64,000 bases of DNA from NCBI GenBank assembly GCA_036389795.1, contig DASVWD010000141.1:62001-126000 (forward strand). The letters are read 5' to 3'. The position numbers and the translations under genes were made by a program. The stretch comes from Longimicrobium sp. Lineage in GTDB: Bacteria; Gemmatimonadota; Gemmatimonadetes; Longimicrobiales; Longimicrobiaceae. Below are positions 29,663-35,013 of the stretch, piece after piece (the first letter of the stretch is position 1; the number at the start of each line of letters is the position of its first letter). The notes beneath the pieces are model-generated. The model was not told the origin of the DNA, did not search any database, and saw nothing but the letters and a program-made list of their open reading frames with translations.

Positions 29663-31807
29663 ATGCGCATCCCTCCACTTCCGCTCGCCGCCCTCGCGCT
29701 CCTGCTCGCGACGGCTTCGCACGTCCGGGCGCAGTCCGCGCGCGTGACGGTGCGCGTTCGCGCGGGCGAGGCGCCGGTGGCGGGCGCGCGCGCCGTCCTC
29801 GGCCGGGCCGCGGCGGCGACGGACAGCGCGGGGACGGCGGTGCTGGCGGCCGCGCGCGGGCCGGCCCGGCTGGTGGTGACGAAGCCCGGGTTCGCGCGGG
29901 CGTCGCTCGGCCTCACCGTGGCGGCGGACACCACGGTGGAGGTGGCGCTGGAGCCGCGCGAGGAGGCGGAGGTGGAGGTCGAGGCGCTGGTGGTGACCGC
30001 CACGCGCAGCGAGCAGCGCATCGAGGACGTGCCGGTGCGCGTGGAGGTGCTCGCGCGCGAGGAGGTGGAGGAGAAGATGCTGATGACGCCCGGCGACGTG
30101 GCGATGCTGCTCAACGAGACGAGCGGCCTGCGCGTCCAGAGCACCTCGCCGTCGCTGGGGGGCGCCACCGTGCGCGTGCAGGGCCTGCGCGGCCGCTACA
30201 CGCAGGTGCTCTCCGACGGGCTCCCCCTCTACGGCGGCCAGAGCGGCGCGCTGGGGCTGCTGCAGATCCCGCCGATGGACCTGGGGCAGGTGGAGGTGAT
30301 CAAGGGCGCGGCGTCCGCCCTCTACGGCGCCTCGGCGCTGGGCGGCGTGGTGAACCTGGTGTCGCGCCGCCCCGCGCCCGAGGCCGAGCGCGAGCTGCTC
30401 CTGAACGCCACCACGCTGGGCGGCGCGGACGCCGTCTTCTGGTCGTCGCGGAAGTGGGGGCGCGGGGGCTACACCCTGCTCGCGGGCGGCCACCGCCAGG
30501 CCGACGCCGACGTGGACGGCGACCGCTGGGCCGACCTCCCCGCCTACCGCCGCGCCGTGGTGCGCCCGCGCCTCTTCTGGGACGACGGCGCGGGCCGCTC
30601 GCTCTTCGCCACCCTGGGCGGCACGGTGGAGGACCGCGAGGGCGGCGGCCGGGTGGCCACGGGCGAGCTCTTCCCCGAGGAGCTCGCGACGCGGCGCGCG
30701 GACGCCGGGCTGGTCGGCCGCTTCCTGCTGGGCGAGGGGCGGCTCCTCTCGCTGCGCGCCTCGGCGATGGCGCAGCGGCACCGCCACACCTTCGGCGACG
30801 CCGTCGAGCGCGACCTGCACCGCACCGCCTTCGCGGAAGCCTCGCTCGGCGGCGCGGGGGGCGCCCACACCTGGGTGGCCGGCGCCGCGCTGCAGCTGGA
30901 GCGCTACGACGCGCGCGACGTCCCCCGCTTCGAGTTCGAGCACGCCATCTCCTCACTCTTCGCGCAGGACGAGGTCCGGTTCTCGGAGGCGCTCTCGCTG
31001 CTGGCGAGCGCGCGGGTGGACCGGCACAGCGAGTTCGGCGCCTTCTTCAACCCGCGCCTCTCCGCGCTCCTGCGCCCCGCCGAGGGGTGGAGCGTGCGCG
31101 CCTCCGCCGGCACCGGCTACTACGCGCCGACGCCCTTCACCGAGGAAACGGAGGCGATCGGCCTCGCCCGGCTGGCGGGGACGGCGCGGGAGGCGGAGCG
31201 CGCCCGGAGCGCCTCGCTCGACGTGGCGCGCACCGCCGGGGCCCTGGAGCTGAACGCCACCCTCTTCGGCTCGCTCATCGACGACGCGGTCGCCCTGCGG
31301 CCGGCCCCCGGCGGGACGGTGGAGCTGGTGAACGTGGAGGGCGAGACGCGCACCTGGGGCACGGAGCTGCTCGCCCGCTGGGTGCAGGGGCCGTGGCACG
31401 TGACCGCCACGCACACCTTCACCCGCTCGACGGAGCCGGACCCGGACGGCGCCGGCCGCCGCGAGGTGCCGCTCACGCCGCGGCACCAGGTGGGGGTGGT
31501 GGGGATGTGGGAGGCGGAGGGAGAGGGGCGCGTGGGCGTGGAGCTGTACTACACGGGCCGCCAGGCGCTGGAGGAGAACCCGTACCGCGCGGCGAGCCGC
31601 CCCTTCGTGATCCTGGGCCTGCTGGCCGAGCGGCGGATCGGCCGGGCGCGCGTCTTCGTCAACGCCGAGAACCTGCTGGACGCCCGCCAGACGCGCTGGG
31701 ACCCGCTGGTCCTCCCCTCCCGCTCCCCCGAAGGCCGCTGGACGACGGACCTGTGGGCGCCCGCGGAGGGGCGGGTGGTCAACGCGGGCGTGCGTCTCGA
31801 GTTGTGA
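29663..31807 (+). CDS. TonB-dependent outer-membrane receptor
   Basis: 714 residues. Signal peptide (cleavage after VRAQ), a carboxypeptidase-regulatory-like beta-sandwich (about 25-105), a TonB-box-like segment (EALVVTATR), then the plug domain with VRVQGLRGRYTQVLSDGLPL and VEVIKGAASALYGASALGG, and a 22-strand barrel to the C-terminus with closing strand residues VNAGVRLEL. It imports a large or scarce ligand across the outer membrane using TonB energy. Downstream of a metal sensor, so a metal chelate is the likely ligand. The last base of its stop codon is the first base of the 171-bp element. Confidence 0.93.
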   Translation: MRIPPLPLAALALLLATASHVRAQSARVTVRVRAGEAPVAGARAVLGRAAAATDSAGTAVLAAARGPARLVVTKPGFARASLGLTVAADTTVEVALEPREEAEVEVEALVVTATRSEQRIEDVPVRVEVLAREEVEEKMLMTPGDVAMLLNETSGLRVQSTSPSLGGATVRVQGLRGRYTQVLSDGLPLYGGQSGALGLLQIPPMDLGQVEVIKGAASALYGASALGGVVNLVSRRPAPEAERELLLNATTLGGADAVFWSSRKWGRGGYTLLAGGHRQADADVDGDRWADLPAYRRAVVRPRLFWDDGAGRSLFATLGGTVEDREGGGRVATGELFPEELATRRADAGLVGRFLLGEGRLLSLRASAMAQRHRHTFGDAVERDLHRTAFAEASLGGAGGAHTWVAGAALQLERYDARDVPRFEFEHAISSLFAQDEVRFSEALSLLASARVDRHSEFGAFFNPRLSALLRPAEGWSVRASAGTGYYAPTPFTEETEAIGLARLAGTAREAERARSASLDVARTAGALELNATLFGSLIDDAVALRPAPGGTVELVNVEGETRTWGTELLARWVQGPWHVTATHTFTRSTEPDPDGAGRREVPLTPRHQVGVVGMWEAEGEGRVGVELYYTGRQALEENPYRAASRPFVILGLLAERRIGRARVFVNAENLLDARQTRWDPLVLPSRSPEGRWTTDLWAPAEGRVVNAGVRLEL

Positions 31808-31977
31808 TACCACTTTGCAGAGCATCGTTCGGGTACAGCTTTCTGATAGAGCATCACACAGAGGACACAGAGGACACAGAGAAACTTCACTCGCGTCTTC
31901 AGTTCCTCCGTGTTCTCTGTGTCCTCTGTGTGATTCCAATCTGTTCGGAACCAGAACAATGCTCGGCAATCTGGTAT
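31807..31977 (+). mobile_element. 171-bp MITE-like element, copy A
   Basis: Bounded by ATACCACTTTGCAGAGCAT and, inverted, ATACCAGATTGCCGAGCAT (16 of 19 match). The interior is a long imperfect palindrome of CACAGAGGA units. The copy at 42080-42250 is the same length, in the other orientation, with only two internal differences seen by eye. No open frame. It starts on the A of the receptor gene's TGA. Rest of the gap to 32038 shows nothing else. Confidence 0.85.
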
Positions 31978-32038
31978 GATGCCGGTTCCAGGGATAGTTC
32001 CGGATGGATTCCGATCCTCCGGCGAACGGCGAAAAGGC

Positions 32039-32109
32039 CTCACACGGAGTCAACGGAGTCAACAGAGAACCCCCGCAGTTCTCCGTTAACTCCGTTTCCT
32101 CCGTGTGAG
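32039..32109. repeat. CTCACACGG hairpin repeat, copy 3
   Basis: Arms 32039-32070 and 32078-32109 are near-perfect inverted copies of CTCACACGGAGTCAACGGAG with an extra unit, flanked by AAAAGGC and ACATTCAG. Likely terminator between the convergent receptor and nitrilase-fold genes. Confidence 0.8.
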
Positions 32110-32194
32110 ACATTCAGTGATGGATCTCGATCCCGACCGCGCCCCTGCGTCTCCGCGTGATTTCCAGCCTGTTCCGTGACGGTCCGGCCGGGCG

Positions 32195-34564
32195 CTAGGC
32201 GTACTCGCGGAGCGCCTCCTCGATCCGGTCGAGCAGCTCCGCCATCTCCACCAGGACCCGCGGGTTGGGGAGCGAGGCGCCCGGCTGCCGGACTCCCCCG
32301 TGCGGGAGCGGCCGGCGCCGGCGGCCCTTCTCGATCCGGGAGTGCAGGGCCGAGAGGATCGCCAGGGGGATCGCCCGCCCGAGGCGCTGCCGGTCCGCGT
32401 CGTCGATGAGGTCGGTGGCGGGGTCGCGCCAGGGGGTGTCGGAGCGCAGCTGGCGGATGGCCTGCCCGGCCAGCTCGCTCCAGTACGCGGTCGCCGAGTC
32501 GGTGGCCGCGGGCTCGGCGAACCAGGTCCGGATCTCCCGGGCGGCCCACTGCAGCTGCGGGGTCGGCCAGTTGGTCTCGACGGCTTCCACGCCCACCGTG
32601 CTCGGGTCGCGCTGCGACTCGCGCAGCAGGTCGATGAGCTCCCTCAGGCGCGCGGGGAGCGCCTCCTCCTCCTCGGGCGCGGGCCGGCTCAGCACCCAGC
32701 CGCTGATCTGCTCGACGTGCCGCCCCCTCAGCGAGATGATCGCGTCGAGGCCGAAGGTGGCGGCGGAGAGCTCCCGGATGTCCGCCCAGTCGCGCAGCCA
32801 GCGGTCGCCGCTCTCCCGCATGGCGTCCTGGGCGGTCGGCCCGGCCTCCGCGCCGTCCCCGCCCGCCGCGGCGCCGCCCGGCAGCGGGTACTGCCGGACG
32901 CCCTCGAACTTGAAGACCGAGGCGTTCTGGTGGTCTCCGCGCCCGTCCACGGTCCACTCCTCGGTCCAGTCGGCGGAGATGGTCATCAGCAGCGCGCCGC
33001 ACCCGTCCTTGAGGTCCAGGATCTTCCACCCCGTGATCTGGTCCTTCCACAGCGCCACGGTGCGCTTGCGCTCCTCCGAGTCGGGGTCTTCCAGCGAGCG
33101 CGACCGGCAGCTCATCCCGGCGCAGGTGAGCGACAGCACCGCGGTGCCGGGATCGTCGGCGAAGACGCTGGCGTAGCGCGCGGCCCAGCGGTGCTTCAAC
33201 TGCGGCCCGTCCATCAGCAGGGCCGTCAGGAGCGTCGGCCCCACGCCGCGGATCAGCTCGGACACGGGCTCGAGCTGCGCCAGGTCTTCGCAGATCAGCG
33301 GGCAGAGCGCCAGCCACCCGGTGGGGGTCAGGAAGGTCAGCCGGCGCTGGGCCACCGGGATCATCTCGTACCAGTTGCGGGTGGTGGCGAAGCGCCCCTC
33401 CAGGCAGTACTGCAGGATCTGGTTGCGGTCGATCTTCCAGCGGTGGTGCTTGCGCTGCGACAGCTCGTACCAGCTCTGGGCGAAGTAGACGGCGAGCCGC
33501 ACCTCGTTCAGGTCGCCGAAGACGGGGTCGCGGTTGTGGATGCCCGTGATGAGCAGCGGTACGTGCTCGATGCGGCCTTCGCGGCGCGCGTCGCGCAGCT
33601 TCCACATCAGCGCCTCGTACTCGGCCTTGGTCAGCGCCAGCTCGGGGAAGACGAGCATGTGCAGCCTGCCCACCTCCTCGTTCACCTGCCGCACCAGCCT
33701 CACCACGCCGTCCAGGCGGGCGTGGCTGTCCTCGCCCGGGGGGTCGTAGCGGAAGTAGCGCACCGACTCGAAGGTGTCGCGCAGGGGGTAGAACGTGTTC
33801 TCCTCGACCTCGGCGGGCCAGGGGACCATGAGGATGTTGATGGTGTTCTCCTCGATGTTGGCCCAGGGCACCGTGCGCCACATGACCTCCACCTCGGAGC
33901 TGTGGAACGTCACCTGGTGCGACACCGAGCGCAGCGTGAGCCCCGACTGCGGCGTGCGCATCTTGGGCAGGACGATGCCGTGGTGCTTGGAGACGGCTGA
34001 GAGCGAGCCGCGCGCGGTGAGGAGGAGGTTCGCCAGGCAGTGGGCCAGGGCGTGCTCGGTGGCCGGCGCCACCAGGAGGCCGAACCCGGTGCACGCCTCG
34101 TCGGCCACGCAGTGCGCGATCACCAGGTTCCGGCACAGGCGCTTCGCCTCGGGGGTGGCGAGCACGCGCAGCTGCTCCACCGTGACGACGGGGGCCAGTT
34201 CCTCGATCTCGGCCAGCGCGTCCAGCAGGAACGGGGCTTCGGCCACCGGCTCCAGCGGCGCGGGGACGTCCGGCGTCAGCCGCCACAGCGGGCCGTCCGC
34301 CCCCTCGGGCGCGCCGCGCGCCAGGAGCGCGCTGATCCCTTCCAGCCAGGCCATGGCGCAGCGCTCGGCCCGCGGCTGCCACCCCGCCTCGCGCGGCCAG
34401 TCGGGAGAGATGATGTGGCGGTAGCACCCGGTCTGGCGCAGCAGGATGGAGGTGAGCGCGAACACGTCGGGCGGCCAGAAGAGCCAGTCGGAAGGAAACG
34501 CCCACTCGGGCGCGATGCTCTCGGCCAGGTACTTGACCGTCCAGCGCGGACGTGAGGCAGGCAT
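32195..34564 (-). CDS. large protein with nitrilase (carbon-nitrogen hydrolase) fold, unknown role
   Basis: 789 residues from ATG 34564 (GGAGGTG upstream). The first about 220 residues are helical and match nothing I know (DWLFWPPDVFALTS). From about 225 to 500 the nitrilase fold is visible: Glu308 in LVFPELAL, Lys377 in HHRWKIDRNQ and nucleophilic Cys425 in CPLICEDL, with KHRWAARYASVFADDPGTAV as the conserved post-Cys region. The last about 280 residues are helical and charged. Ordinary nitrilases are 260-360 residues. The motif set recalls the nitrilase domain joined to reverse transcriptases in DRT1 anti-phage systems, but no reverse-transcriptase motif is present. Monocistronic. Substrate unknown; a defence or signalling role is possible but unproven. 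Confidence 0.7.
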   Translation of the reverse strand: MPASRPRWTVKYLAESIAPEWAFPSDWLFWPPDVFALTSILLRQTGCYRHIISPDWPREAGWQPRAERCAMAWLEGISALLARGAPEGADGPLWRLTPDVPAPLEPVAEAPFLLDALAEIEELAPVVTVEQLRVLATPEAKRLCRNLVIAHCVADEACTGFGLLVAPATEHALAHCLANLLLTARGSLSAVSKHHGIVLPKMRTPQSGLTLRSVSHQVTFHSSEVEVMWRTVPWANIEENTINILMVPWPAEVEENTFYPLRDTFESVRYFRYDPPGEDSHARLDGVVRLVRQVNEEVGRLHMLVFPELALTKAEYEALMWKLRDARREGRIEHVPLLITGIHNRDPVFGDLNEVRLAVYFAQSWYELSQRKHHRWKIDRNQILQYCLEGRFATTRNWYEMIPVAQRRLTFLTPTGWLALCPLICEDLAQLEPVSELIRGVGPTLLTALLMDGPQLKHRWAARYASVFADDPGTAVLSLTCAGMSCRSRSLEDPDSEERKRTVALWKDQITGWKILDLKDGCGALLMTISADWTEEWTVDGRGDHQNASVFKFEGVRQYPLPGGAAAGGDGAEAGPTAQDAMRESGDRWLRDWADIRELSAATFGLDAIISLRGRHVEQISGWVLSRPAPEEEEALPARLRELIDLLRESQRDPSTVGVEAVETNWPTPQLQWAAREIRTWFAEPAATDSATAYWSELAGQAIRQLRSDTPWRDPATDLIDDADRQRLGRAIPLAILSALHSRIEKGRRRRPLPHGGVRQPGASLPNPRVLVEMAELLDRIEEALREYA

Positions 34565-34701
34565 GAGCACCTCCGCGAAAAAATCGTCCAACGGATCTGC
34601 CGCGGCGGGGGAGGCCGCGTTCACCAGAGGCCGGACCTGGAAGAAGAGACGGACCGCCGCCCGGGCATTCCCCCGGGCCGCCGGGCGCCCGCTCCCCAGC
34701 A

Positions 34702-35013
34702 ATGGATCGCCGGCGCGGCGGCCGCGCAATAGTTCCGGAAACGGCAACTCCGGGACGGCGCCGGTCCGCCGTGCTGGTCGGCGGGACGGGCGCGCACGCC
34801 GGCCCGCACGCCCACACGCACCCGGCGCTGGAGGGCGGAGCGGTGGCGCTGGCCGCGCACACGGGGGCGATGTTCCTGGTGATGAGCGTCGCGGCGCTCG
34901 CGGTCTACCGTGTGCTCGGCGTGGAATTCCTGCGCCGGGTGTGGGTCAACTTCGACGCCTTATGGACGGGGGCGATGTTCCTCGCCGGCGTGGTTACGCT
35001 CCTCGCGCGGTAG
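34702..35013 (+). pseudogene. C-terminal remnant of a membrane protein gene
   Basis: The frame from 34702 gives about 35 low-quality residues, then a His-rich turn (HAGPHAHTHPALEGG) and two good membrane helices (ALAAHTGAMFLVMSVAALAV and FDALWTGAMFLAGVVTLLAR). This looks like the last third of a multi-helix membrane protein whose 5' part is missing; there is no SD at the ATG. It faces away from the nitrilase-fold gene and could be a short real protein, but a broken gene is likelier. Confidence 0.45.

Follow-up and report, generated by a model that had tools for sequence, protein, structure and literature searches.

A Large Nitrilase-Fold Protein from Longimicrobium sp. as a Candidate Stand-Alone Anti-Phage Effector without a Reverse Transcriptase

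Introduction

Can a nitrilase act in anti-phage defense without a reverse transcriptase (RT)? In DRT1, nitrilase activity is required for defense and causes abortive infection, its substrate being unknown (PMC13275509). A UG5 RT–nitrilase carried by the P4 satellite, together with a 1TM protein, protects Escherichia coli (PMC9122126). Every defense nitrilase found in a search of the open-access literature is RT-linked. The question is raised here by a gene in a 64,000-nucleotide stretch of a Longimicrobium sp. contig (the window), which an initial annotation had read as a large nitrilase-fold protein and put forward as a candidate defense or signaling enzyme.

Gene and locus

The gene (P0001) occupies positions 32195–34564 on the minus strand (ORF 34564–32195), its 789 codons encoding a protein of 789 residues. 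It has a good Shine–Dalgarno sequence, GGAGG at 34570–34574, five bases 5′ of the ATG at 34564, and a chance ORF is ruled out because homologues run to hundreds. The gene is monocistronic. On its 5′ side lies a divergently oriented 103-aa ORF (34702–35013, plus strand), residues ∼26–101 of which match the C-terminal part of complete 218- to 222-aa membrane proteins in relatives. Both the reading frame and the bordering truncated gene remnant of the initial annotation are thus real, the latter being the C-terminal remnant of a gene for a ∼220-aa membrane protein. In relatives, the complete membrane protein gene adjoins a selenium-binding-protein-like gene.

Dispersed palindromic repeats lie on the 3′ side of the nitrilase gene. 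The region 31804–32150 holds a dispersed intergenic repeat of about 170 bp, of the CACGGAGTCAACGGAG / ACACAGAGGACACAGAG type, with palindromic arms at 31853–31934 and 32034–32114. This type of repeat occurs in dozens of copies in the host genome, several of them at contig ends, and in weaker copies in congeners. Together, the remnant and the 3′ repeats are consistent with a past rearrangement at this locus. In congeners, the genes on the two sides of the locus are split between contigs, and comparison with them yielded no clean empty site.

Judged by eye, the neighboring genes encode a cation-efflux-like protein, an ArsR-type regulator, a TonB-type receptor, a DEAD-box helicase, a peptidase-like protein, and leucyl-tRNA synthetase. 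PADLOC flagged only generic regulator and helicase models here, and there is no defense island at this locus or at that of a paralogue in the same genome.

Fold and active site

An AlphaFold2 model of the protein, built with 78 homologues as input (rows from plasmid records were left out), was confident, with a mean pLDDT of 88.9 and a pTM of 0.92. The model places an α-β-β-α nitrilase fold at residues 235–545, with helical regions on either side, in agreement with the layout proposed in the initial annotation. Comparison of the model with VIA gave Z scores of 14.7 to the glutaminase domain of NAD+ synthetase (234 aligned residues, rmsd 3.5) and 14.6 to yeast Nit2, and the best Foldseek match was a formamidase (E = 4.8e-6). 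By its predicted fold, the protein may be counted as a member of the nitrilase (C–N hydrolase) superfamily. A PDB sequence search found no relative beyond chance, and even at E ≤ 1 the protein has no match among the Pfam, NCBIfam, and PADLOC models. Because it misses the cut-off of PF00795, it represents a divergent branch by fold, outside the Pfam family as modeled.

The N-terminal helical domain (residues 1–196; 33977–34564, minus strand, as for all features of the gene) is predicted by the AlphaFold2 models and present in 82 of 84 homologues. Its fold had been called unknown, and residues 1–236 alone indeed gave no PDB match at E ≤ 0.001 with Foldseek and a best VIA Z score of 2.9. It is followed by a conserved linker motif, VLPKxRTPQxGxTLRSLSH (residues 197–221; 33902–33976), in which K201 occurs in 83/84 homologues and G208 is invariant. 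The nitrilase domain was delimited as residues 235–560 (32885–33862) on the basis of the VIA and Foldseek matches. The C-terminal helical domain predicted by AlphaFold2 (residues 575–789; 32198–32842) is confined to a subset of the family, being found in 18 of the 84 aligned homologues, the window protein among them.

Four residues are invariant in all 84 homologues: Glu308 (codon 33641–33643), Lys372 (33449–33451, in the motif KHHRW), Glu400 (33365–33367), and the predicted nucleophile Cys425 (33290–33292, in LICEDLA). In the model, these residues sit at the ends of strands 303–305, 365–371, 398–400, and 420–424, or just past them, as in nitrilases. Glu400 lies 25 residues before Cys425, where nitrilases have their second Glu. 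A profile–profile alignment with three UG5 RT–nitrilases placed Glu308, Lys372, and Cys425 on the Glu (PEL motif), Lys, and Cys (LICSE) of these enzymes. Of the Glu308–Lys377–Cys425 triad named initially, the Glu and the Cys stand, but Lys377 is variable (K in merely 19/84 homologues) and gives way to Lys372, with Glu400 added. The predicted catalytic set thus comprises Glu308, Lys372, Glu400, and Cys425, and the protein is probably a large amide-cutting enzyme from an unannotated family.

Distribution of the family

A search of one genome per species yielded 186 relatives, 80 of which were fetched, and plasmid copies were added. Members are 530–960 aa long and occur in Pseudomonadota, Acidobacteriota, Actinomycetota, Bacteroidota, Myxococcota, Planctomycetota, Verrucomicrobiota, and, on a plasmid, Deinococcota. 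The family is patchy over at least eight phyla and is found on plasmids, in prophages, and among defense genes. A Myxococcota bin carries two family genes in tandem (L026:9869–16138).

A search of 117 genomes from the genus and its related groups found the family in the window genome alone. In the tree, the window protein falls within a clade of Bacteroidota sequences with an SH-aLRT support of 100, and the paralogue, which is 46% identical to it and flanked by housekeeping genes, groups with the copy on a Deinococcus plasmid at a support of 88. The window gene was probably acquired horizontally, and two separate acquisitions would be the simplest reading of the tree.

Genomic neighborhoods and prophages

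The 133 genes nearest to 20 homologues were compared with 129 genes from 20 control regions on the same contigs, each separated from the homologue by about 70 kb or more. Raw counts of PADLOC families (135 for the homologue neighbors versus 12 for the controls) are inflated by generic helicases, a single ordinary DEAD-box helicase of the window matching 40 models. These counts were therefore set aside, and weight was given to specific, strong matches. At E ≤ 1e-50, 26 families were found among the homologue neighbors, a list of which the generic kinase model group PD-T4-6 makes up much, whereas the best E value in the controls was 3.7e-31. The strong matches include type I RM methyltransferase and specificity subunits, CBASS HORMA, TRIP13, a SAVED–PDDEXK effector, CARF, DarG, and IetA.

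In Terriglobus roseus, a tyrosine recombinase (integrase) gene lies 75 bp upstream of the nitrilase gene, and a complete type III CBASS (effector, TRIP13, HORMA, and CD-NTase) lies downstream. Directly upstream of the nitrilase gene in Mucilaginibacter OK283 are a caspase–NACHT-like gene (by eye) and two DUF262 (GmrSD-like) genes, one of them confirmed by Pfam. Many other homologues adjoin ordinary genes, such as that for PEP carboxylase.

Clustering of the neighbors revealed no conserved operon partner across the loci, no recurrent transporter or pathway partner was found across them, and the small downstream ORFs share no family. In some genomes, the nitrilase gene follows closely behind another gene, which is a possible partner. 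On an Agrobacterium plasmid (L014:5160–7421), a gene for a 754-aa P-loop protein without a Pfam match lies 12 bp upstream of the homologue, and the locus continues with DGQHR-domain, radical SAM, and PIN-like genes. Two Acidobacteriota (L045:5340–7400 and L051:7929–9899) carry homologous 656- to 686-aa proteins, also without a Pfam match, encoded directly upstream of the nitrilase.

Relatives also turned up on five IMG/VR contigs. In three phage or prophage contigs, the nitrilase gene is the lone cargo beside phage genes, which were named by eye: tail, repressor, and integrase genes in P2-like L160; terminase, integrase, replication, and repressor genes in L161; and tail, lysis, and Dam genes in L162. 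On a further contig (L163), a fragment lies in the vicinity of type I restriction and integrase genes. A tblastn search of GenBank phages gave no hit, and an Aeromonas homologue found no match at the DNA level in E. coli genomes. Because the homologues are accessory and mobile and lie among defense genes and in prophages, they are not core genes outside defense islands.

Relationship to RT-linked nitrilases

The initial annotation had likened the nitrilase part to that of DRT1, and the profile searches bear this out for the family. When defense reverse TRANSCRIPTASES kinship was assessed for 59 family members against PADLOC, the RT_UG5-nitrilase model matched 21 of them (best E = 5.3e-7), RTasNitrilase matched 17/59, and Drt1a matched 8/59; Pfam CN_hydrolase (PF00795) matched 3/59 at E ≤ 1, with a best E of 2e-5. 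In one genome-level check, the RTasNitrilase match (model positions 161–247) fell within the nitrilase part. With hhalign, the window nitrilase domain scored 95.7% to the UG5 nitrilases versus 50.9% to the metabolic nitrilases of the host itself, the latter match spanning only 37 columns around the Cys. The domain hence appears closer to the nitrilases of class-3 defense RTs (DRT1, UG5) than to host metabolic nitrilases. The kinship is nevertheless remote: the best E value for a single protein is 5e-7, and none of these models matches the window protein. Outside the nitrilase domain, hhalign detected no homology between the N-terminal domain and the helical region of UG5 (0.9%).

As the initial annotation had stated, no RT is present: none lies in the ORF or beside it, and no RVT_1 match was found anywhere in the window genome (98% complete). 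None was found in 6 of 20 other carrier genomes either, and for these reasons we describe the family as RT-free. An RT was found within 10 kb at 2/20 loci, both in Bacteroidota. In Mucilaginibacter OK268 (L040:5116–12346), metallo-β-lactamase-like, protease–RT, PolA-like, and nitrilase genes are tightly spaced on the same strand (protease and PolA named by eye); possibly, these form one operon uniting a UG-type RT with a nitrilase. In Pedobacter panaciterrae (L022:15238–20796), a 1852-aa protein with a primase-like start (by eye) and an RVT_1 domain is encoded on the opposite strand near the family member.

Alternative explanations

The protein could instead be an accessory metabolic amidase or nitrilase, a niche gene acting on an environmental or intracellular amide in nitrogen scavenging or detoxification, its proximity to defense genes reflecting shared genomic islands. 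The fold matches are to enzymes of this kind (formamidase, Nit2, and the NAD synthetase glutaminase), and the window gene, like several homologues, has metabolic or housekeeping genes as neighbors. We consider this unlikely, given that the nitrilase travels as lone prophage cargo, that strong defense neighbors contrast with none in the controls, that the nitrilase is nearer to RT-linked nitrilases than to those of host metabolism, that the extra domains are large and conserved, and that a recurrent transporter or pathway partner is lacking.

Less probable still is a role as a signaling enzyme in defense, making or removing a small amide-type signal or modifying a protein, with a separate killer encoded nearby in some genomes (P-loop, metallophosphatase–ATPase, GmrSD, or RT modules). 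Several close upstream genes would fit such a role, namely those for the Agrobacterium P-loop protein (12 bp), a metallophosphatase–HATPase in Pedobacter (86 bp), and GmrSD_N in Mucilaginibacter (52 bp), as well as the RT–protease and PolA-like genes that immediately precede the nitrilase gene in Mucilaginibacter OK268. These partners vary by locus, however; no partner accompanies the window copy or those in prophages, and at other loci the preceding gene is plainly unrelated. It is very improbable that the nitrilase is a component split from a DRT system and acting in trans with an RT encoded elsewhere in the genome. Domain kinship to DRT1/UG5 and the RT within 10 kb at 2/20 loci speak for this idea, but RVT_1 is missing from the window genome and from 6/20 carriers, and for this genome the idea is largely excluded.

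Proposed function

Because the closest described relatives of the family are the killer domains of RT immune systems, the family may be a stand-alone virus-defense enzyme. The reading we favor, with fair though far from full confidence, is that of a stand-alone, RT-free anti-phage nitrilase effector of the abortive-infection type, with kinship to the effector domains that class-3 defense RTs carry. DRT1 (PMC13275509) and the P4 UG5 RT–nitrilase (PMC9122126) served as models for the mechanism. Until a phage cue releases it, the 789-aa protein would stay inactive, its N-terminal domain and oligomeric state being the probable restraint. Cys425 would then attack an amide or related C–N bond in an essential metabolite that bears an amide or amine or, alternatively, the reaction would yield a toxic product, and growth would stop ahead of phage release. 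The helical domains may take over sensing and regulation, the role that DNA synthesis by the RT has in DRT1.

Computation gave the fold, the invariant Glu–Lys–Glu–Cys set, the N-terminal domain, the DRT1/UG5 kinship, the mobility, and the defense and prophage setting; a defense function for the family is what we infer. The proposal of a defense candidate gains from the homologues among defense genes and in prophages, whereas both copies in this genome lie outside defense islands. A broader idea, which we regard as slightly less than evenly probable, is that the family constitutes a widespread, previously undescribed single-gene anti-phage system, in which an RT-independent nitrilase effector has its own sensing domain. 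It would be an ancestral or parallel stand-alone form of the DRT1/UG5 effector and a simpler route to their substrate. If a family that has this kind of domain but no RT spans many phyla and travels in prophages, the nitrilase by itself would qualify as a portable immune effector, and its substrate and toxicity could be investigated without DNA-synthesis machinery. Such proteins would escape present annotation, as the PADLOC, Pfam, and NCBIfam models miss the window protein.

Comparison with known systems

With the classical nitrilase superfamily (PF00795: Nit2, formamidase, and the glutaminase domain of NAD+ synthetase), the protein shares the predicted fold (VIA Z 14–15) and the catalytic residues; it differs in lacking a Pfam match and in its extra helical domains and accessory distribution. 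The UG5 RT–nitrilases (DRT5 type) and the PADLOC RTasNitrilase model are the closest profile matches, with Glu, Lys, and Cys aligned. In UG5, however, the RT is fused (L130–L132), the Cys is followed by SE rather than by the ED of the family, and KHHRW is absent.

DRT1 (UG1 RT–nitrilase, class 3; PMC13275509) likewise has a nitrilase domain with Glu–Lys–Cys chemistry on the C-terminal side of a helical region, and matches of the Drt1a model to family members are weak but recurrent. The family differs in having no RT domain, in its length (530–960 aa, compared with about 1,230 aa for DRT1), and in its helical N-terminal domain, no homology having been detected beyond the nitrilase part when tested against UG5. 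A trait of DRT class 3 is the assembly of filaments or tetramers regulated by DNA adducts. As judged from profile comparisons, the family shares a homologous nitrilase effector domain with this class (DRT1, UG5) and, by analogy, the 789-aa protein would work like a DRT class 3 system without belonging to it, having no RT.
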